IMG/VR virus record: IMGVR_UViG_3300037189_007467
Span: 1 to 24,751 of that record
DNA: 24,751 bases
Source: a virus
Strand: one strand, 5' to 3'
Below the pieces are notes generated by a model. That model saw only the letters and a list, made by a program, of their open reading frames with translations. It was not told the DNA's origin and searched no databases. The translations under genes were made by a program, and so were the position numbers. Shown here piece after piece: positions 16,601 to 24,686 of this stretch (positions within the stretch are counted from its first letter, which is position 1; each line of letters starts with the position of its first letter).

Positions 16601-16804
16601 TTATCTCTCTCGCTGCGACTGCCTGTGCCTACGGAGCGCGTCTTGCAGCATCGTGGGCCAGGCGGTGCCACAGTAGGCGATCAAATCGGCAATCGCCTCA
16701 ATTGCTTTTTCGTGGTTGTTATCGTTGCCAATCGCACGGCACACCCGATGGATGCGGGCGACCTCGCGCGGGCTCATGTCGCGCAGCTTTTGAAGACGGC
16801 TCAT
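16601..16804 (-). CDS. Small protein downstream of the integrase
   Basis: This 67-residue minus-strand ORF opens MSRLQKLRDMSPREVARIHRVCRAIGNDNNHEKAIEAIADLI and ends in a basic tail (RRHRQSQRER). It is 54 bases after the integrase stop on the same strand, so it is probably on the same transcript. No clear Shine-Dalgarno is seen. A 6-bp hairpin (16823-16828 with 16833-16838) lies between the two genes. Composition looks like a real helical protein, and the plus-strand reading of the same bases does not. Function unknown. Confidence 0.5.
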   Translation of the reverse strand: MSRLQKLRDMSPREVARIHRVCRAIGNDNNHEKAIEAIADLIAYCGTAWPTMLQDALRRHRQSQRER

Positions 16805-16858: not shown

Positions 16859-17749
16859 TTATGTCGGCGGCGTCAAATCCAGTGCCGGCAGCAAATCCGG
16901 TGCGGACGGACCCTGCGGAACGATGCGAGGGTCTAGGTAACTCTTCTGCGTGATTGCCGGGCTGGAATGATCCGCCAACTTTTGGCCTGCTCCAGGGCAC
17001 GCTGCCTCCGCATACGACACGGCGGCACGGCGTATCCCATGGAAACCACGGTACTGCACCCGCGCACGGCTGGCTATACCCTGCAGCCGCCGCCACAGGA
17101 GGCACGGGTTGCGATCCCACGGCCAGACCATGGCATTCTGGTTCTGGATGCGGCTCGACAGCCAAGCCGCCAACGTCTGCGAAATCTGCCGGTCTAGGTC
17201 GCGGGTCTGGTTTTTCCGCGTTTCCGCCCGGAAAGTGATGCGGCGGCCCGCCGTGTCTACCTCCCGCCATTTGGTGTGCAGAACGGCGTTTATGCGTTCG
17301 CCAGACTCCCAAAGGCAGAGCAGCAACGAGCTCCACCAATCGGCCTCGGAGACACCCGCCACCGTCCCGGTGAACCGTCTGGCCTCGCGGATCAGCAGGG
17401 CCACGTCCTCGGCCGTATAGGCCACGGGCACCCGCGTGGGGGCTCGCATGATGGGCACCTCGGGGAAGGCCAGCATTTCCCCGTCACTGCCCTTCATTCG
17501 TTTTCTAGCGGCATACCGCCACAGTGCCAAAATCTGCACCCGGTCGCGGGCAGCCGTGGCCCGGCACGTCTCGCGCTCTCGAGCGGAAAGGAACCGGGCA
17601 ACCGTTAAATCAGTTAGATGATCCAGCCGTGCCGGCTCGCCCAAGTGTCTGTCGAAGTGCCGCAGACTCACTTGGTAGCAGTTGATCGATTTCTGCCCAA
17701 GGCGGCGAAGCGGGGCATATTCCCGCGAAAAAAGATCGTTCAGCGTCAT
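16859..17749 (-). CDS. int: Tyrosine-recombinase integrase
   Basis: This 296-residue site-specific recombinase should catalyse insertion of the phage into the host chromosome and, with a directionality factor, excision. All active-site residues are visible: R152 (GERINAVL), K179 (RAETRKN), H237 and R240 (FHGIRR), H261 (LADHSSP) and the nucleophile Y271 (KSYLDP). Residues 1-90 form the SAM-like core-binding domain (INCYQVSLRHFDRHLG). No long arm-binding domain is present; length is at the short end of phage integrases. The start has AGGAG on the minus strand 9 bases upstream. It lies divergently from an HTH gene, with the attP candidate between them. Confidence 0.92.
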   Translation of the reverse strand: MTLNDLFSREYAPLRRLGQKSINCYQVSLRHFDRHLGEPARLDHLTDLTVARFLSARERETCRATAARDRVQILALWRYAARKRMKGSDGEMLAFPEVPIMRAPTRVPVAYTAEDVALLIREARRFTGTVAGVSEADWWSSLLLCLWESGERINAVLHTKWREVDTAGRRITFRAETRKNQTRDLDRQISQTLAAWLSSRIQNQNAMVWPWDRNPCLLWRRLQGIASRARVQYRGFHGIRRAAVSYAEAACPGAGQKLADHSSPAITQKSYLDPRIVPQGPSAPDLLPALDLTPPT

Positions 17750-17950
17750 TGTGGGTACTCCTGTTGCGGGGCTTCCTGCCTCCTCTATCTAGCCCGCGAA
17801 TCGGCGCGAGGCGTCCGGGTGTGCTAATTTTTTGAAGTGCTCGTTTTCCGGCCTTCATGGTGTCAAGTGGACTCCGCTCCATTGGTAAGCGGTGCCCGTA
17901 GTTCAACACTACGGGCACCGCCATCCAAAGGCAAGCGCCTGCGTGGGCGT
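17750..17950. other. Integrase-excisionase intergenic region, attP candidate
   Basis: This is the upstream region of both the minus-strand integrase and the plus-strand HTH gene. It contains the integrase ribosome site, a T6 run at about 17826-17831, and a perfect 14-bp inverted repeat (listed separately). attP sites usually lie beside the integrase gene, so the core is probably here. I cannot define its ends because the host attachment site is not in the window. No convincing sigma-70 promoter for the integrase was found by eye. Confidence 0.4.
17889..17921. repeat. Perfect 14-bp inverted repeat with tRNA T-loop-like loop
   Basis: GCGGTGCCCGTAGT (17889-17902) and its exact reverse complement (17908-17921) flank TCAAC. 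Read as RNA, the apex fits the tRNA T-loop pattern G-TTCAACA-C on a 5-bp stem, continued by 7 further pairs as in an acceptor-T-arm minihelix. There is no T run after it on either strand, so it is not a typical terminator. It may be an integrase or excisionase site or a structured RNA end; the tRNA likeness may be chance. Confidence 0.7.
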
Positions 17951-17978
17951 TTGACGCTTCTACCGCACTCGGTAGTAT
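17951..17978 (+). promoter_or_regulatory. Promoter P1 of the excisionase-like gene
   Basis: TTGACG (17951-17956) and TAGTAT (17973-17978) are separated by 16 bases, close to a sigma-70 consensus. The spacer and -10 carry operator O1. The -10 ends only 6 bases before the ATG at 17985, so transcripts should start at or next to the start codon and be leaderless. Confidence 0.65.
17959..17976. promoter_or_regulatory. Operator O1 (TCTACCG-CACT-CGGTAGT)
   Basis: Palindromic 18-bp site matching ACTACCG-N4-CGGTAGT with one change in the left half. It covers the P1 spacer and -10 box, so a bound protein should block P1. The same site recurs at two further promoters. Confidence 0.7.
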
Positions 17979-17984
17979 GGAGGC

Positions 17985-18242
17985 ATGAGCACCGTGGCAT
18001 CACCCGACAACAAGTGGGTATCCGTTTCCGAGGCGTGCGAACTGGCCGGCTGCACCGACGGCTGGATTCGCCACCTGCTGCGCGAGGGCAAACTTGGTGG
18101 CTTTCAAGTCAACGAATGGACGTGGATGGTTGACCGGGCCGAGGCCGTCGCCCTGCGTAAGCATCTATCCAGCCGGTCCAACGCCGCCAAAGACAAGAGC
18201 CCCAAGCCGACGCCAAAGCGTGGCTCAAGAAAAAGCGCCTAG
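17985..18242 (+). CDS. Small HTH protein, excisionase-like
   Basis: This 85-residue protein has a helix-turn-helix at about residues 11-45 (WVSVSEACELAGCTDGWIRHLLREGKLGGF) of the MerR/HTH_17 kind used by phage excisionases. A short linker and a lysine-rich tail (KDKSPKPTPKRGSRKSA) follow. Divergent placement beside the integrase supports a role as recombination directionality factor, possibly also as regulator of the operators around it. GGAGG at 17979-17983 is too near the start for normal use, and promoter P1 predicts a leaderless message. An alternative in-frame GTG at 17994 would give a normal GGAGG spacing only if the transcript started further upstream. Confidence 0.7.
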   Translation: MSTVASPDNKWVSVSEACELAGCTDGWIRHLLREGKLGGFQVNEWTWMVDRAEAVALRKHLSSRSNAAKDKSPKPTPKRGSRKSA

Positions 18243-18282
18243 CACGGGCGAAATGCACCGAAAGTTTTTTTGTGAATTCCCC

Positions 18283-18310
18283 TTGCATGAACTACCGAAC
18301 TTGGTAGTAT
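18283..18310 (+). promoter_or_regulatory. Promoter P2
   Basis: TTGCAT (18283-18288) and TAGTAT (18305-18310), 16-base spacer, same layout as P1. A transcript starting about 7 bases after the -10 would have a short leader holding the AAGGA ribosome site of the 47-residue ORF at 18333. Confidence 0.65.
18291..18308. promoter_or_regulatory. Operator O2 (ACTACCG-AACT-TGGTAGT)
   Basis: 18-bp palindrome with one mismatch in the right half, lying in the spacer and -10 of P2 at the same phase as O1 in P1. Confidence 0.75.
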
Positions 18311-18332
18311 GCCCCACGTGAAAGGAATCACT

Positions 18333-18476
18333 GTGAAGCTCAACTGGAACAACGCGATTCACGCCTTGGTTCTTATTCGGATCGGCCAAGACCTTGGGAC
18401 GAATTCCCAAGCGGCCAAGGCGGTTCACGATCTGATCGAAATGCTGGCAGCGGTTGCCAGTGGATTTTGCCGTTGA
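18333..18476 (+). CDS. 47-residue protein with its own operator-controlled promoter
   Basis: GTG 18333 has AAGGA at 18322-18326 with 6-base spacing; an upstream in-frame GTG at 18318 is less likely. The protein is MKLNWNNAIHALVLIRIGQD, then LGTNSQAAKAVHDLIEMLAA and VASGFCR: two amphipathic or hydrophobic helices without a clear membrane segment. The stop codon lies inside the -35 box of promoter P3. Being alone behind a regulated promoter suggests a regulator or early host-takeover protein, but no family is recognised. Confidence 0.5.
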   Translation: MKLNWNNAIHALVLIRIGQDLGTNSQAAKAVHDLIEMLAAVASGFCR

Positions 18477-18500
18477 CCAAACTACCGAACTCGGTACACA
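18473..18500 (+). promoter_or_regulatory. Promoter P3 of the early operon
   Basis: TTGACC (18473-18478) and a weaker -10 TACACA (18495-18500), again with a 16-base spacer holding an operator. It is followed by a second operator copy and by AAAGGA before ATG 18535. It should drive the replication genes. Confidence 0.55.
18481..18498. promoter_or_regulatory. Operator O3 (ACTACCG-AACT-CGGTACA)
   Basis: Copy of the 18-bp site with the last two bases of the right half changed. It covers the spacer and -10 of P3. Confidence 0.75.
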
Positions 18501-18518
18501 ACTACCGAACTCGGTACA
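18501..18518. promoter_or_regulatory. Operator O4, tandem copy of O3
   Basis: Identical to O3, starting exactly 20 bases later, so both lie on nearly the same face of the DNA and could bind two repressor dimers cooperatively around the early transcription start. Confidence 0.75.
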
Positions 18519-18534
18519 GAAAGGACTCTGACGC

Positions 18535-18780
18535 ATGGACGCACATTCACGGGAATACGCCGCTGCCGTGGCTGGAATGCAGGACACGTACGGCACGCAG
18601 AAGCAGACGCACGCCGTTGGCGATTCGATCTGGATTCGTCTGCCGGGAACCGAGAACACACACGCACGGGTGGTGGTGCTCGAGGTGCTAGATGACGACG
18701 TGTACCACGTCGTTCGGCACGTGCCAGGTGCCGAACGGGAGCACTACGCAGTCACGACCGAAGAAATCATGCCCTTCTAG
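18535..18780 (+). CDS. First gene of the early operon, unknown
   Basis: This 81-residue protein has a helical start (AHSREYAAAVAGMQDTYG) and a beta-rich rest (HAVGDSIWIRLPG, ARVVVLEVLDDDVYHVVRHVPG, HYAVTTEEIMPF) like a small SH3-type barrel. AAAGGA at 18520-18525 precedes the ATG. The tandem operators lie directly upstream, so it should be the first gene expressed on induction. No family is recognised. A short hairpin (GCCGGT-gga-ACCGGC, 18791-18805) lies between it and the next gene. Confidence 0.6.
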   Translation: MDAHSREYAAAVAGMQDTYGTQKQTHAVGDSIWIRLPGTENTHARVVVLEVLDDDVYHVVRHVPGAEREHYAVTTEEIMPF

Positions 18781-18890: not shown

Positions 18891-19811
18891 ATGGTTCAGA
18901 TTCGCAAGGCCCGGCGCAGTGCCACGAAACTGCGGCTTCTCCTCACCGGCCCCAGCGGCAGCGGCAAGACGTGGGGTGCTCTTCAGATCGCCAAGGGACT
19001 TGGCGGCAGGACGGTCGTGATCGACACAGAGGAGGGGTCATCCGATCTGTACGACCACCTTCACGATTTCGACGTGATTGACCTGCGGCCACCGTTCACG
19101 CCAGAGCGGTACATCGAGGCGATCCAGGCGGCCGAAGACGCCGGATACGAAGTCATCATCGTGGATTCGGTGACGCACTGCTGGAGCGGGACGGGCGGTT
19201 GTCTTGAACTGCTCGAGGAGATTGCGAAGGCGCAATTTCGCGGGAACACGTGGTCAGCGTTCAGCGTCATCACGCCACGGTGGCGCATGTTTGTGGACAA
19301 ACTCCTGCGATCACCGGCCCACATCATCTGCAGCGGGCGATCCAAGACCGAGACGGCCCAGGTGGACGACCACGGCAAGAAGAAGGTGGCGAAGCTCGGC
19401 ATGAAGCTTGAGGCCCGCGACGGCCTGGAGTTTGAATTCACGACCGTGCTGGACGTGATCCACGACGGGCACTTTGCCACCGTCAGCAAAGACCGCACGG
19501 GGGTGTTCGCGGGCGATCCAAAGCCAATCACGGTGGACACAGGCCGCAAACTGGCCGAGTGGCTGGCGGGCGGTCAGGAACCGGAGGCGAAGCCGCTGAA
19601 GACCGAGCCGGCGGTGGACGTGGCGAAGTTGCTGACCGAGACAAGCGCGGCCATTGCTCGTGCGTCTGCAGCACAACTTGAGCGGCTGCGACCGAAGGTG
19701 CTGGCCCGCGTCACGGCCGGAGAACTGACCGAGAACCAGGCCGGAATGCTGACCGACCAGATCGACCAGCGGATGGCGTCACTGACTGCTGGAACAGGAG
19801 CGACATCGTGA
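18891..19811 (+). CDS. Sak4-like RecA-fold ATPase, single-strand annealing/recombination
   Basis: This 306-residue protein has Walker A GPSGSGKT (20-27), a VIDTEEGSSDLYDH strand after it and Walker B VIIVDS (88-93). A conserved HCWSGTGG-type loop and a C-terminal charged helix follow. This is the AAA_24/Sak4 pattern: a shortened RecA-like core used by phages for recombination together with an SSB. The gene directly downstream encodes an SSB-like protein, which supports the call. AAAGG upstream gives a good ribosome site at ATG 18891. The C-terminal 90 residues (TEPAVDVAKLLTETSAAIARAS) are an added helical region. A helicase loader is the main alternative. Confidence 0.75.
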   Translation: MVQIRKARRSATKLRLLLTGPSGSGKTWGALQIAKGLGGRTVVIDTEEGSSDLYDHLHDFDVIDLRPPFTPERYIEAIQAAEDAGYEVIIVDSVTHCWSGTGGCLELLEEIAKAQFRGNTWSAFSVITPRWRMFVDKLLRSPAHIICSGRSKTETAQVDDHGKKKVAKLGMKLEARDGLEFEFTTVLDVIHDGHFATVSKDRTGVFAGDPKPITVDTGRKLAEWLAGGQEPEAKPLKTEPAVDVAKLLTETSAAIARASAAQLERLRPKVLARVTAGELTENQAGMLTDQIDQRMASLTAGTGATS

Positions 19812-20383
19812 ACCAGCCACGAACGTCTTTTGAACAGAACGAGATGGAACTTTTGTGGTCACGGAACGATCCCTACATCAACAGAACGAGAAGGAGATTA
19901 CCAGTGCAATTTGCAGTACAGGACAACCAGCAGACGGAAACGCTTGAGCGGCCCATCGTGCCGGCTGGCGTTCGCGTGATGACCATTCTGGCCGCCGAAG
20001 AGGGACCGAATCATTACAAGGTGTGCGACGAGAACCCGGACGGCATGTGTCTGAAACTCCGGCTTTCGGACGCCAACGGCGGATTCAAGTTTGTTTTCGA
20101 CGACATCCCGAAGCACCTCGGGTGGCGGGCCGCCCAACTGGCCGAGGCGGTTGGCATCAAGGCTGTCAGCGGCAGCCTGGTGCTGACGCCCGACGAGCTC
20201 GTGGACCGGCAGATCCTTGTGGAAGTCTCGCACTACACGTCGAAGGCCGGAAAGGTTTCTGCGGTGGTGAAGAAGTACATGCCGCCCGATCCGGCGAGGC
20301 TGCCCAAGTCTGCTGTTGCTTCGGCCAAGAAGCCGGCGAGCCAGAAGGCCACGACGCTGCCTGACGATGACATCCCGTTCTGA
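19808..20383 (+). CDS. Single-stranded DNA-binding-like protein
   Basis: This 191-residue protein starts at GTG 19808, overlapping the ATPase stop, with AGGAG at 19796-19800. A second good start exists: GTG 19904 with AAGGAG at 19891-19896, giving 159 residues beginning MQFAVQDNQQTETLERPIVP. The core is beta-rich (GVRVMTILAAEEGPNHYKV, FKFVFDDIPKHLG, RQILVEVSHYTSKAGKVSAVVKKYMPP). The tail is a disordered K/A/P stretch ending DDDIPF, the same acidic tip that bacterial SSB uses to bind partner proteins. Role: coat single-stranded DNA at the fork and serve the Sak4-like ATPase. The fold itself is inferred; the tail is direct evidence. Confidence 0.7.
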   Translation: MNQPRTSFEQNEMELLWSRNDPYINRTRRRLPVQFAVQDNQQTETLERPIVPAGVRVMTILAAEEGPNHYKVCDENPDGMCLKLRLSDANGGFKFVFDDIPKHLGWRAAQLAEAVGIKAVSGSLVLTPDELVDRQILVEVSHYTSKAGKVSAVVKKYMPPDPARLPKSAVASAKKPASQKATTLPDDDIPF

Positions 20384-20574
20384 TGATCTACGGGCGATGG
20401 AAAGCATGGACGCCGTGGCGGCTGAAGCGAGCCCAAGCAGCCGAAGCCGCCACGGCGAAATTCAAGGAGGATTCCGATGCAGTGCGAGAAGCACAGCAGC
20501 CAGTTGGTGCGCAAGGTGGCCGCCAATGGCTTAAGCCAGTTCACGTATCAATGCCGAAACTGCGGCCAGATTGA
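20383..20574 (+). CDS. Possible small ORF between SSB and HNH genes
   Basis: This 63-residue ORF begins in a TGATG overlap with the SSB-like stop (20381-20385). It reads MIYGRWKAWTPWRLKRAQAAEAATAKFKED before overlapping the HNH gene by 98 bases in another frame. No Shine-Dalgarno is seen. The non-overlapping first half looks protein-like (amphipathic basic helix). The overlapping second half may be filler, so the ORF is uncertain. Confidence 0.3.
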   Translation: MIYGRWKAWTPWRLKRAQAAEAATAKFKEDSDAVREAQQPVGAQGGRQWLKPVHVSMPKLRPD

Positions 20575-20986
20575 CTACGAAAAGACCGGCCGAGGCCCGT
20601 GGGTGGCGAAGCCCGCGACCATCGAAATCGACGCGCTGCCGCTGTGGAGCGACGACCTCCAGGCGGCCAGCATGGAGGCCGTTCGCCTGCAGGCCGAGGC
20701 GCAGCGAGCCGAGCGAGACGAGGCGTGGTGGGCTGCCTACCACGATTACCTCGACAGCACCGATTGGCGGGAGAAGCGCCGCCGCGTGCTCGAGCGGGAT
20801 CGGCACCTCTGCCAAGGCTGCCTGCAAGACGTTGCCGCCCACGTCCACCACATGACATACGACCGGCTCTTCAATGAGTTGCTGTGCGATCTCGTTTCGC
20901 TCTGCACCGAGTGCCATCAGAAGTGCCACCCGCACAAGGACATCCTCGGAAGGGAGTTGCATGGACACGCTGTCACAGTGCATTGA
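20477..20986 (+). CDS. HNH endonuclease with N-terminal zinc ribbon
   Basis: This 169-residue protein has GGAGG at 20466-20470. Residues 1-35 contain C3, H6 and C26-R-N-C29, a zinc-ribbon-like start. Residues 85-155 form the HNH domain: WREKRRRVLERDRHLCQGC, HVHHMTYDR (H124/H125), N133 and C143-T-E-C146 with H147. The paired CxxC motifs bind structural zinc and the histidines cut. Free-standing HNH proteins in phages act in packaging, recombination or as homing nucleases. Here it sits in the replication operon between SSB and primase, not beside terminase, so a replication or recombination role is more likely. It overlaps the next gene by 26 bases. Confidence 0.8.
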   Translation: MQCEKHSSQLVRKVAANGLSQFTYQCRNCGQIDYEKTGRGPWVAKPATIEIDALPLWSDDLQAASMEAVRLQAEAQRAERDEAWWAAYHDYLDSTDWREKRRRVLERDRHLCQGCLQDVAAHVHHMTYDRLFNELLCDLVSLCTECHQKCHPHKDILGRELHGHAVTVH

Positions 20987-22718
20987 TTTTCTCGGCGCGA
21001 TCTTTGAGCCAGAGGACATCATCGAATTCCGCCCGCTACCGCCATCGGCTGGCCGCAGGTGGTCCCCGCTCACCGAAATCCCCGACATCGTGGAATGGCT
21101 GCAGCGGGTGAACGCCGATGAGCACCAGCGCGTGCACGCCTACTTTGGGGCAAACCCGAGGAAGGAAGTCGGTGCCAGCCAGGCCGAAGGCGTGAAGTTG
21201 GCCCGCTGCCTGTTCGCGGACTTTGATGGCGGGGCCGACTACGAAGACGCCATGGGGCGCATCAAGGCGGCGGATCTGCCGTGGCCTACCGCGATCCTTG
21301 AGAGCGGCGGCGGCATCCACGCTTGGTGGCGGCTTGATCAGCCCATGACCGATGCCGAGGCGTGGCACGTTCGCATGAAGGCGATTGCCTCGGCCCTCGG
21401 CTCCGATCAGTCGGTTTGCGATTGGCCACGCATCATGCGGCTGCCGGGATTCGTGAACTGGAAACACGAGCAACGCCCGCTTTCGGTGCTCAAGGACTGC
21501 GATCCCACGAGGGTCTACACGCTGGCCCGGCTTTCGCGGCAGGCGGTGCAGTCGGTGGTTGTGCAGCCCAAGAGCATGAGCGACCTGACGCGGCGATTCG
21601 TGGAGGAGGGATTCACGCTCGCCGCCGGCCGGCGGCAGACGATGTTCACCGTGGCCTGCGACTTGGCTGCTCGAGGGTGGGGCGTTGCCGAGGCTACGAC
21701 GCTCATCATGGGCCGGATGCGGCGTGTCGGGTTGCGGCAGGACGACCTCGACGATTGCCCGAGGCAGATAGCCAACGCATGGAAGCGGCAGCGGCTTCCT
21801 GTTCTTGGCCCTGCTGACGAGGCCCGCCCGGTTGAGGATGCCGTTGACGAGACGCCCACCCCGACGCTCGTGGACGCCATCGATGCCTGGGTGAAGCAGG
21901 AAGAAACGCCGGCCCTGCCGACCGGCCTGACATCGCTTGACATGCTGTTTGACGGCGGCCTTCCCCTTGGGCAGATGACAGCGATTGCGGCGGCCCCCGG
22001 CGTTGGCAAGTCGGCCCTCGCCCTGCAGTTGGCGATCATGGCCCTGACACAGCACCCAGAGATGAATGCCGCGTGGTGCTTGGGCGAGATGACCCGCAGC
22101 GCCTTGGCTGCTCGAGCGGTCACGTACTGGTGCGACGGCAAGCACTTCTCGCACCTGACCCTGCAGGAAGTGATTCACAAGGACATGCACGCCCGTGAAG
22201 TCGGCGTGCACCTGGCCGGCGAAATCGGTGACCGGCTGAAACTTATTGAAGCCCCGCTGGTCGTGGACAAGATCGAGCGGGCCGTGGCGAAGGATGGGGT
22301 GAAGCTGCTGATCGTGGATTACCTGCAGTTGGTCAGGAGCACGAGGCACTTCCCAGACCAGACCGGCGAAATCATTGACGTGCTGCAGAAACTCAGACAC
22401 ATCACCAACAGCCGCAACATCGCCACGGTGCTGGTCACGAATATCGCCAAGGGCGTGGATCACAACACCGAGATCGGCAACATCGGCAAGGGATCAAACC
22501 AGATTGATTTTGACGTGGACAACTTCCTTTTCGGGCAGCGAACTACCGAAGTCGGTGGTGATGGCGAGGTGCTGGTTCGCTGGCACTGCAAGAAGTTGCG
22601 GCAGGGCGAGCGGAAGGACATCGACCTGTGGTTCCACGGGAAGTACCAGCGGTTTGTGGACTCCATCTCAACTCCGTTTGAGGAGTTCAAAGACCCGTGG
22701 GGGCAATCCGATGCCTGA
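20961..22718 (+). CDS. Primase-DnaB-type helicase fusion
   Basis: This 585-residue protein joins two replication enzymes. Residues about 50-190 look like a RepB/AEP-type primase: FADFDGG (D87, D89), ESGGGIHAWW (H120) and PRIMRLPGFVNWK (154-168, with R157 and R160). Residues about 205-280 are a helical linker. Residues 318-575 are a RecA-like helicase of the DnaB/RepA kind: TGLTSLDMLFDGGLPLG, Walker A APGVGKSA (345-352), LGEM, Walker B LLIVDYLQLV (449-458) and the late GSNQIDFDVDNFLF. The start 20961 has GGGAG upstream. It should unwind and prime at the fork, loaded by the downstream initiator-like protein. An operator-like sequence lies in its 3' part. Confidence 0.85.
   Translation: MDTLSQCIDFLGAIFEPEDIIEFRPLPPSAGRRWSPLTEIPDIVEWLQRVNADEHQRVHAYFGANPRKEVGASQAEGVKLARCLFADFDGGADYEDAMGRIKAADLPWPTAILESGGGIHAWWRLDQPMTDAEAWHVRMKAIASALGSDQSVCDWPRIMRLPGFVNWKHEQRPLSVLKDCDPTRVYTLARLSRQAVQSVVVQPKSMSDLTRRFVEEGFTLAAGRRQTMFTVACDLAARGWGVAEATTLIMGRMRRVGLRQDDLDDCPRQIANAWKRQRLPVLGPADEARPVEDAVDETPTPTLVDAIDAWVKQEETPALPTGLTSLDMLFDGGLPLGQMTAIAAAPGVGKSALALQLAIMALTQHPEMNAAWCLGEMTRSALAARAVTYWCDGKHFSHLTLQEVIHKDMHAREVGVHLAGEIGDRLKLIEAPLVVDKIERAVAKDGVKLLIVDYLQLVRSTRHFPDQTGEIIDVLQKLRHITNSRNIATVLVTNIAKGVDHNTEIGNIGKGSNQIDFDVDNFLFGQRTTEVGGDGEVLVRWHCKKLRQGERKDIDLWFHGKYQRFVDSISTPFEEFKDPWGQSDA
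22542..22559. promoter_or_regulatory. Operator-like site inside the helicase gene
   Basis: ACTACCG-AAGT-CGGTGGT fits the operator pattern with one change in the right half, lying within coding sequence (residues RTTEVGG). No promoter is obvious around it. It may be a remote operator for looping, or chance. Confidence 0.35.
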
Positions 22719-23259
22719 CAAGAAACCATCCGCCAAAGGCGAACTGCGCCGCCGCCACAGGGCTTTGCTCTCAGAGGGTGTCATGGCACGCCTCGGAAGC
22801 GAAGGCCGGCTAATGGCTTGCTACGCACTGTATTGGGCTGATTTTGAGAAGTGCACGCTGAAGCTCAGTATCCGTGGGGCGGCTAAGGTGCTTGGCGTCT
22901 GCCCGAATGGCGTGCGGCGTGGCATCCAGCAACTGCTCGAGGCCGGAGTTTTGACGCTGGTTTCCAAGGGAACGGGCAGCCAGCGGAGCCAGTACGAAGT
23001 CGGTGCCCCCGGTCACGAGGCGTGTGCGCTCCGTACACGTAGCGTGACCACCCCGGTCACGACCGGTGACCGGAGCGCACACGTAGCGTGTACGGAGCGC
23101 ACACGTAGCGTGTACAGAGCGCACACGCTACGTGACCCCTATTTAAATATCTCTATTGGTAGTCAAGGTACTACCAATAGAGAGATTCAATCAGCCAATC
23201 CGCCCGGCTCGCCCGGTCAGGAACCGGACGACCGGGCCGAGGAAGGGGGGGCGGCATGA
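22711..23259 (+). CDS. Winged-helix replication initiator-like protein containing the putative origin
   Basis: The protein has 182 residues, starting at ATG 22711 and overlapping the helicase stop by 8 bases. Residues 30-98 form a winged helix: RLMACYALYWADFEKC, LSIRGAAKVLGVCPNGVRRGIQQLLEAGVLTLV, then a GTGSQRSQYEV wing. Residues about 102-142 are encoded by a 22-bp iteron array and look low-complexity. The C-terminal 40 residues are disordered and acidic (PGQEPDDRAEEGGAA). The layout copies lambda O: an N-terminal DNA-binding domain whose own gene holds the origin, next to the helicase gene. Family identity with O cannot be claimed from sequence; a plain regulator is the alternative. Confidence 0.6.
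   Translation: MPDKKPSAKGELRRRHRALLSEGVMARLGSEGRLMACYALYWADFEKCTLKLSIRGAAKVLGVCPNGVRRGIQQLLEAGVLTLVSKGTGSQRSQYEVGAPGHEACALRTRSVTTPVTTGDRSAHVACTERTRSVYRAHTLRDPYLNISIGSQGTTNREIQSANPPGSPGQEPDDRAEEGGAA
23014..23134. repeat. Iteron array, six 11-bp palindromic cores at 22-bp spacing (putative origin)
   Basis: Cores start at 23014, 23036, 23058, 23080, 23102 and 23124, exactly 22 bases apart. They are CACGAGGCGTG, CACGTAGCGTG, CACGACCGGTG, CACGTAGCGTG, CACGTAGCGTG and CACGCTACGTG. Five fit CACG-N3-CGTG; the third ends GGTG. The 11-base linkers are also related: TACGGAGCGCA (23091), TACAGAGCGCA (23113), ACCGGAGCGCA (23069) and the exact inverse of the first at 23025. Because 22 is not a multiple of 3, the encoded peptide does not repeat, so selection is on DNA. 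An AT-rich stretch follows at 23140-23160. Confidence 0.85.
23150..23183. repeat. 14-bp inverted repeat beside the iterons
   Basis: TCTCTATTGGTAGT (23150-23163) and its exact reverse complement (23170-23183) flank CAAGGT. It directly follows the AT-rich stretch CTATTTAAATAT (23139-23150). Its inner ends, TGGTAGT and ACTACCA, equal operator half-sites turned outward. It could be a primer/loading hairpin of the origin or a regulatory site. Confidence 0.75.
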
Positions 23260-23438
23260 GGCACGCCCCCCTCGGGATCCGCGAGGTTGCGGACCAGTGC
23301 CGCCGCCGGGCCGCGCTGGACACGACGGACAACATGACGGCCATCGTCCTGTTGATTGCCGCCAAGGCGCTTGAGCAACAGGCCGACCGGCTGATTCGGC
23401 AGGCTCACACCCTTGAGCACCTGGAGGCCGTCAAGTGA
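23256..23438 (+). CDS. Small helical protein in the replication operon
   Basis: This 60-residue protein starts in an ATGA overlap with the initiator-like gene, with a G-rich stretch GGAAGGGGGG upstream. It reads MRHAPLGIREVADQCRRRAA, then LDTTDNMTAIVLLIAAKALE and QQADRLIRQAHTLEHLEAVK: helices with a short hydrophobic patch (AIVLLIAA) too brief for a membrane span. It is followed by a GTGA overlap with the next ORF. No family is recognised. Confidence 0.55.
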   Translation: MRHAPLGIREVADQCRRRAALDTTDNMTAIVLLIAAKALEQQADRLIRQAHTLEHLEAVK

Positions 23439-23614
23439 CCGTATCCCAGTTGGCCCTCATCTGCGCCGGTTTCTCGATCAACGCCCTGACGTTCGCTCTG
23501 GGCATTCTTGTTGGTTGTTCTCTTCTCACTCGAAAGGATTCGACACATGACCGCAACGAAGGAACGAAAAAAGGCCCGACCCTCTGGCACGAAGTTGAGC
23601 GCCGGAAGTCTTAA
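23435..23614 (+). CDS. Small single-span membrane protein overlapping the clamp gene
   Basis: This 59-codon ORF begins at GTG 23435 (GTGA overlap) with GGAGG at 23423-23427, a strong site. Residues 4-31 are hydrophobic (SQLALICAGFSINALTFALG, then ILVGCSLL), followed by a charged tail (TRKDSTHDRNEGTKKG). This predicts one membrane segment with a cytoplasmic basic tail. It overlaps the start of the sliding clamp gene by 68 bases in another frame. It could be a holin-like, superinfection-exclusion or membrane-anchor protein; nothing decides between these. Confidence 0.5.
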   Translation: MTVSQLALICAGFSINALTFALGILVGCSLLTRKDSTHDRNEGTKKGPTLWHEVERRKS

Positions 23615-24686
23615 GGCGGCGCTGGCCGCTGTGCAGGGTGCCGTGGGCGGCGACCGACACCCGAAGCCCATCCTGCGCAACGTGCTGATCGCCAACGGGC
23701 TGATTACGGCGACCGACCTTGAAGTGCAGATTGAACACGAACTGTGGGCGGGAGACTCGCCATGCACGCTGTCGCTGCTCGTGCCGTTCGCACGCCTGTG
23801 GTCAATCCTGTCGCTGTGCCAGCCGTCCGACGAGGTGACGATCACGCCGGGCGAAACGTCGTGCGTGGTGGCTGCTGGGCACGGCACGTGGACGATCCCC
23901 ACGGAGTCGGCTGCCGAGTACCCCGAGATGGACGCGCCGGGCGTGGCACCGATCACGCGCCTGCCAGCGGACCAGTTTGTGCGGGCGGTGCGTGGCGTGG
24001 TCTACGCCGCAGACAACGAGAGCAGCAGGTACGCCCTTGGTGCCGTGTGCCTTGAGGTCAAAGGCGACGAGGTTTCCGTGGTGGCGACTGACGGCCGGCG
24101 GCTGTCGCTTGTGAAGCTCGAGCACGACCTGGCCGTGGACGATTCAAGCACGCTCGTGCCCGAGCGGGTGATGCAGCTGCTGGCACGTCTGGCAGAGCGG
24201 GCCGGTGACGAGGCCAGCGTGCAGCTGGAAGCCTCGGCCAATACGCTGATGGCAACCATCGGCGGCACGACGGTGACGGCACGGCTGACCGAAGGGCGAT
24301 TTCCAAAGTGGCGGGACGTGTTCCCGACGCGCGACGTTGAAGCGACGGCCGTGGCCCGTGACCAGTTGCTGGCGGCAACCCGTGCGGCGGCCATCGTCAC
24401 GACCGAGAACAGCCGTGGCGTGACATACACGCTGACCGCTGACGGGATCCACCTGCACGGGCAGTCGTCGGAAAGCGGCGAGGCCAGCGTGACGTGCGAT
24501 CTGGTGCAGTTTGGCCAGGCGGCCACGGTGAAGTTGGATCCCCGCTTCGTCGTGGAGTTCTTGAACGGCGTGCCGCTGGACGAAGAGCCCAATGTCGAGG
24601 TCGAGGCCGTGGACGCCACCAGCGCCGTGGTGCTGCGGTGCGGAGAGTTTTTGGGCGTGATCATGCCGCTGGCGAAGGATGCGTGA
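23547..24686 (+). CDS. dnaN: DNA polymerase III beta subunit-like sliding clamp
   Basis: This 379-residue protein is close to the length of bacterial DnaN (about 366). Family landmarks: LSAGSLKAALAAVQGAVGGDRHPKPILRNVLIA at the start; TDLEVQIEHEL; the central RLPADQFVRAVRGVVYAADNE with ALGAVCLEVKGDEVSVVATDGRRLSLV; and the third domain ending GVIMPLAK. Two like beta strands per domain fit the three-domain clamp. It should tether a polymerase to DNA; whether the phage polymerase lies beyond the window or the host polymerase is used is unknown. ATG 23547 has AAAGGA upstream; it overlaps the small membrane ORF. Phage-encoded DnaN-type clamps are uncommon. Confidence 0.88.
   Translation: MTATKERKKARPSGTKLSAGSLKAALAAVQGAVGGDRHPKPILRNVLIANGLITATDLEVQIEHELWAGDSPCTLSLLVPFARLWSILSLCQPSDEVTITPGETSCVVAAGHGTWTIPTESAAEYPEMDAPGVAPITRLPADQFVRAVRGVVYAADNESSRYALGAVCLEVKGDEVSVVATDGRRLSLVKLEHDLAVDDSSTLVPERVMQLLARLAERAGDEASVQLEASANTLMATIGGTTVTARLTEGRFPKWRDVFPTRDVEATAVARDQLLAATRAAAIVTTENSRGVTYTLTADGIHLHGQSSESGEASVTCDLVQFGQAATVKLDPRFVVEFLNGVPLDEEPNVEVEAVDATSAVVLRCGEFLGVIMPLAKDA

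Follow-up and report, generated by a model that had tools for sequence, protein, structure and literature searches.

Three early promoters that carry the same palindrome in their spacers raise the question of which phage or host protein binds it. The stretch of DNA analysed here (the window) is a complete IMG/VR record (24,751 bases) that probably represents part of a temperate phage genome and has a reading frame open at its left edge. An earlier note on this DNA proposed that a single repressor controls an excisionase-like gene, a 47-residue gene and the replication operon as an immunity switch, and it listed the excisionase-like gene only as a target while naming no binding protein. On this last point, the comparison of related phages leads to a different view, in which the likely binder is the product of the excisionase-like gene itself (17985-18242). 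The four sites are very probably operators of this protein, which would act as a self-repressing repressor of early transcription.

In the window, a tyrosine integrase gene on the minus strand (16859..17749) is divergent from promoter P1, whose first gene (17985..18242, plus strand) encodes the 85-aa winged-helix protein proposed as the operator-binding repressor, from here on the P1 protein. Downstream, and also on the plus strand, are a 47-aa gene (18333..18476; g55 in many relatives) with a GTG start picked by comparing relatives, the 81-aa gene g81 (18535..18780), which is the first in the P3 operon, and an AAA_24 ATPase gene (18891..19811; phrog_1366, with a weaker likeness to Sak4-like proteins). 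The rest of the replication region (19808..24686, plus strand) encodes SSB-like, HNH, RepB-primase/DnaB-type helicase, g181 and sliding clamp proteins and is assumed to be a single transcript. The region between the integrase and P1 contains a hairpin (17889-17921) with a perfectly paired 14-bp stem and a 5-nt loop, close to a conserved CAAGTGGACTCCGCTCCATTGG stretch. Relatives differ in the stem and are similar in the loop and surroundings; the hairpin may belong to attP or be an RNA element. Also, a 67-aa ORF on the minus strand directly downstream of the integrase (16601-16804) is 95% identical in record G398 and was not found in the other six records compared.

A motif scan of the window bore out the four near-palindromic sites that the earlier note had placed at 17959, 18291, 18481 and 18501. 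Allowing up to three mismatches to ACTACCG-N4-CGGTAGT, matches are found at 17959 (O1, one mismatch), 18291 (O2, one), 18481 (O3a, two), 18501 (O3b, two) and 22542 (one). This corresponds to five matches against 0.41 expected, and none of 100 shuffles gave five, ruling out a chance origin of the sites. The match at 22542 was judged coincidental and rejected as a true operator because the helicase ORF encloses it and a -35 at a suitable distance was not seen. Promoter P1 (17951..17978, plus strand) is TTGACG-16-TAGTAT, with its -35 at 17951, its -10 at 17973 and O1 (17959..17976) within the spacer. P2 (18283..18310, plus strand) is TTGCAT-16-TAGTAT, with its -35 at 18283 and its -10 at 18305, and its spacer holds O2 (18291..18308). 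For P3 (18473..18500, plus strand; TTGACC-16-TACACA, -35 at 18473, -10 at 18495), O3a (18481..18498) is within the spacer and O3b (18501..18518) directly downstream. The same -35/16/-10 spacing at the three promoters, with the operator in equal phase, is likewise as first described, given that each site starts 8 nt past the first -35 base. P3 has a poor -10 and an imperfect right half in both O3a and O3b; it is kept in relatives, most of which also have the second tandem box. A simple sigma-70 scan recovered P1 and missed P2 and P3. A weaker operator at P1 than at P3 was tested and is unsupported, and no operator was found at the 5' side of the integrase gene.

The earlier note had also proposed a search for the motif through the phage and its relatives. 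The window and five relatives 29-46 kb long were therefore scanned, using for every record the operator class that it carries; matches with zero mismatches fall at P1, P2 and P3 only, whereas looser ones also occur elsewhere, such as the two one-mismatch matches outside P1-P3 in record G408.

The P1 protein is predicted to form a winged helix over residues 11-60, with likeness to Xis, BldC and MerR, and to be without structure after residue 60, where the prediction is of low confidence. The folds closest to the predicted structure, at modest E-values, are those of Pukovnik Xis and BldC. The HTH_17 profile (PF12728) matches the window protein with 19.8 bits, under the curated cut-off of 27 bits; the protein of L018 is over it (31.1 bits), most of the other relatives are below it, and those of L042 and L050 have no match to this profile. 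Hardly any residue is invariant (A2) in the alignment across relatives, and a tblastn search of the window protein against phages gave no match. The ATG lies 6 nt past the -10 of P1 in the window and 6-7 nt after it in 145 of 151 loci, so the P1 mRNA is predicted to be leaderless.

A megablast search of the window against phages returned no match, and every phage match of its ATPase was below 60% identity. Related viral loci were found through the ATPase (62), the 85-aa protein (8) and a genome scan (5), and among the last only L071, a 3.5-kb contig from a Planctomycetota MAG, shares the window layout. The recurrent order is a minus-strand integrase gene, the small winged-helix gene, P2, cargo and g55, P3, g81 and the ATPase. 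The tentative candidate host is one Planctomycetota MAG, the sole close match among 397 genomes sampled from its class and 392 sampled from its phylum. Some of these loci hold further elements. Between P3 and g81, L018, L024, L068, L033 and L038 have another sequence resembling a promoter (TTGACC-16-TACACT or TATAGT), which lacks an operator specific to the class. Moreover, 55 of 325 loci, some of them overlapping, have small cargo genes preceded by a conserved element roughly 39 nt long, GGGGCCACCCGGC...GAAACGGGTGGC, in which an 8-bp hairpin is possible (L020:5097, L071:1318, L043:5132, L012:4745 and L174:3852, among others); it is absent from the window and had no Rfam match in the six sources searched.

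Throughout this conserved layout the palindrome varies between phages, tracking the kind of P1 protein, and at least eight combinations of protein and operator are present among the relatives. The window shares CTACCG-N4-CGGTAG with L010, L107 and L111, and CTAACG-N4-CGTTAG is found in L018, L024, L034 and L036. The class TACCGA-N2-TCGGTA comprises L012, L045 and L037, the last two with poorer P3 sites. Other classes resemble TTCTAACG-N4-CG(C/T)TAG (L019, L035, L041 and L068), GGTTCCGAT (L020 and L038), GTAGTTGCGATA (L014, with a poor P3, L042, L051, L055 and L057), TATGCAAAG or CAACGA (L017, L033, L050, L060 and L070), and CTACCGATAG or CTACCG-N5-CGGTAG (L022, L043, L058 and L071). Promoter spacers across the relatives are of 16-18 nt, and the P1 operators are poor in several phages.

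The agreement between operator and protein was quantified in 31 reference phages, hand-chosen from 72 sources (the 62 ATPase loci, the 8 P1-protein loci, L071 and the window) after leaving out loci with missing ends, near-duplicates and those without a P1-type gene, which is present in 57 of 73 loci searched. Their P2 and P3 operators were picked by eye. Omitting six phages that do not have one of the four proteins (n=25), the similarity of P2 operators gives a Mantel r of 0.84 with the P1 protein, compared with 0.20 for the integrase, 0.12 for the ATPase and 0.15 for the SSB; for P3 operators the values are 0.68, 0.36, 0.29 and 0.25, respectively. When the genes were compared singly, none of eight others (integrase, ATPase, SSB, helicase, g181, clamp, g55 and g81) followed the operators better than the P1 protein, and all eight were discarded as best follower; the P1 protein led throughout except for one tie, the helicase and the P1 protein both reaching 0.54 with the P3 operators (n=9). 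The g181 protein was also rejected as the binder, being 96% identical in L035 and L050 despite their different operators. Furthermore, the nearest P2 of a P3 operator is of the same type in 21.7 of 31 cases, with ties shared, a value that none of 10,000 label shuffles reaches.

A later set consisted of 187 loci fetched with P1 proteins of five types, reduced to 120 by removing 11 incomplete loci, 35 repeats of a reference record and 21 duplicates. The P1 type of each was that of the nearest reference protein, a weak match for a few, and the P3 of L017 was removed from the reference set for the P3 type matching and for the in-place comparison. A blind promoter rule found P2 in 75 of the 120, with no promoter in the other 45, and 70 of the 75 have the operator of their own P1 type while five disagree. 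With regard to P3, 116 loci were long enough and 82 have a P3-like promoter, which agrees with the P1 type in 80 and disagrees in two, whereas reversed sequences gave three such promoters and none agreeing; relatedness makes the sequences non-independent, and the true number of events is lower than these counts. P3 is 0.2-3 kb from the P1 gene, and because the gene, P2 and P3 are all within this distance, shared inheritance accounts for part of the correlation.

A comparison of phages of unlike P1 type with at least 75% identity on both sides of P3 (n=9 pairs) reveals that the operator differs according to P1 type in seven: L018/L068, L035/L217, L035/L216, L139/L216, L139/L205, L038/L278 and L060/L071. 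In L018 and L068 both P3 boxes are unlike and the flanks alike, with integrases 98% identical. The two pairs that show no difference, L014/L017 and L017/L183, both include L017, a hybrid with the P1 gene and P2 operator of type 6, yet the unchanged P3 of its type-5 neighbour L014. Larger exchanges are observed as well, the whole block from integrase to P3 being exchanged between L020 and L024 with arms 98-99% identical. The cargo does not follow the operators, because L024, whose operators are as in L018, has a cargo stretch 88% identical to that of L068.

A different reading of the same gene is that its product is an excisionase or directionality factor that also represses early promoters during lytic growth, in the manner of Cox or Apl, another factor keeping lysogeny. 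The P1 protein is a small winged-helix protein encoded beside a divergent integrase (within reach of the gene in 135 of 151 loci), it has weak PHROG matches to excisionases, Pukovnik Xis is its nearest fold, and double roles are known (PMC7498355 and PMC7379572, in their available text). However, its specificity does not track the integrase: in 34 locus pairs the P1 type differs despite an integrase identity of at least 90%, and in 101 pairs P1 proteins with at least 85% identity occur with integrases that share no more than 50%. The sites are also palindromes at promoters. An excisionase is expected to go together with its own integrase and att site, and this decoupling therefore disfavors excision as the main role. 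The P1 gene probably does not encode an excisionase matched to the adjacent integrase, and the Cox- or Apl-like reading is unlikely, albeit the strongest competitor. Less probable is another phage repressor, unseen, that binds the sites while the P1 type is merely co-inherited. Most records are fragments and the gene comparison covered nine genes, which leaves room for it, but the P1 protein is the best operator-follower among those nine. Moreover, L024 and L068 share the integrase (99%), the cargo (88%) and the ATPase region and differ in P1 protein and operators, and L018 and L024 are unlike in cargo and alike in both. As the earlier note had stated, there is no CI-type repressor in the window, where no HTH_3 match is found, the P1 protein having a weak HTH_17 match instead. 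Among 21 records with a P1-type gene, none has HTH_3 over the cut-off (four have weak matches), whereas two of the three records without such a gene in the locus (L062, L063 and L069, i.e., G415, G416 and G417) are over it and one has weak matches. This would suggest, from a small number of records, that the P1 gene and a CI-type gene may replace each other.

Activation of the promoters by the P1 protein in MerR style would fit a MerR-like fold and a site within the -35/-10 spacer. Nevertheless, MerR-activated promoters have spacers of 19-20 nt, compared with 16-18 nt for the operator-containing spacers here, and a protein of 85 aa predicted unstructured after residue 60 leaves scant space for a C-terminal dimerization or effector domain, so activation of this kind is very improbable. 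Slightly less credible still is a host regulator such as LexA, which would couple the phage to the stress state of its host. Prophages under LexA control are known, but the operators here are unlike among phages with near-identical backbones, and the lexA promoter of the one candidate, uncertain host carries a different dyad (by eye); on these two grounds LexA was set aside as a very improbable binder. The dyad in question (L076:2290-2440, candidate host G001) is long, GGTATaGTACgATACC flanked by TGAACG/CGTTCA, and is possibly the LexA box of this bacterium.

The proposed regulation of early promoters by the P1 protein is placed among phage repressor-operator switches, a known kind. In phage lambda, CI and Cro act on operators at early promoters and cI can be read from a leaderless mRNA; the differences are an HTH_3-type protein with an S24 domain and divergent promoters, neither of which is seen here. 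The stoperators of cluster A mycobacteriophages are many asymmetric sites spread over the genome and serve another repressor, in contrast to the few palindromes at three promoters in the present case. The likeness to this group is that repressor and stoperators co-evolve into immunity specificities (PMC6550527, available text). Regarding the proposed mode of action, the nearest known system is CvkR, the MerR-type repressor of type V-K CRISPR-associated transposons. According to the available text of its report (PMC9938897), CvkR resembles the P1 protein, as the latter is viewed here, in being a small MerR-like repressor that serves a mobile element, in its leaderless mRNA and in the palindrome within a promoter spacer. 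It differs in having 150 aa and a 21-nt spacer at one promoter and in belonging to a transposon instead of a phage, and that text holds no comparison of a family with swapped specificities that we could find.

The winged-helix HTH_17/MerR-like fold of the P1 protein is shared by RdfS, Pukovnik Xis and BldC (PMC11963761; PDB codes: 4j2n, 6ama and 8dgl), and RdfS also represses its own promoter. However, RdfS and BldC oligomerize head to tail on DNA, and a palindromic operator in a promoter spacer was not found described for the three in the available text of PMC11963761. Regulation is a second role of the excisionases Apl of phage 186, P2 Cox and Pf XisF4, small phage proteins that repress early promoters and take part in the choice between lysis and lysogeny. 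Unlike the role proposed for the P1 protein, they drive excision and have a distinct immunity repressor alongside them, and the sites bound by Apl are direct repeats spaced by one helix turn rather than palindromes (PMC7498355 and PMC7379572, available text). A further contrast is that the integrase here is unmatched to the P1 protein. By analogy with RdfS, BldC and Apl, HTH_17 relatives that use direct repeats or head-to-tail oligomers, the palindromic sites would speak against the P1 protein as the binder.

The earlier proposal of one regulator for the three early promoters is supported by the matching of operators and proteins across the family; its immunity-type function is what we infer. 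On the best reading of these sequences, the P1 protein would functionally be an immunity repressor in phages without CI. Made from a predicted leaderless mRNA, it would bind as a dimer to the palindrome in the 16-18 nt spacer and exclude RNA polymerase. Autorepression at P1 would set its own level, and P2 (47-aa gene) and P3 (replication region) would be kept off, maintaining lysogeny and conferring immunity. The second operator at P3 may be a roadblock or an aid to cooperative binding, and the conserved 47-aa protein under P2 is, as a speculation, a candidate antirepressor. Literature searches found no earlier description of this phage system, which does not prove its absence.

More generally, we propose tentatively, at a little short of an even chance, that a lineage of temperate phages without CI may use a leaderless, self-repressing, excisionase-like winged-helix protein as its only immunity repressor. 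Such a protein would bind palindromes, in contrast to those relatives that have been studied, and immunity specificity would pass between phages as the gene together with its operators, the two boxes of the distant P3 changing jointly and in place. A caution for annotation is that the master repressor may be encoded by an excisionase-like gene adjoining an integrase; the small repressors, perhaps mutually insulated, are possible tools. Finally, matched sets of repressor and operators that determine immunity are known in few phage groups, and the sequences of uncultured phages reveal at least eight classes here, swapped naturally on backbones that hardly change. The system would thus allow a direct test of how repressor and dispersed operators can evolve jointly without the phage being lost.
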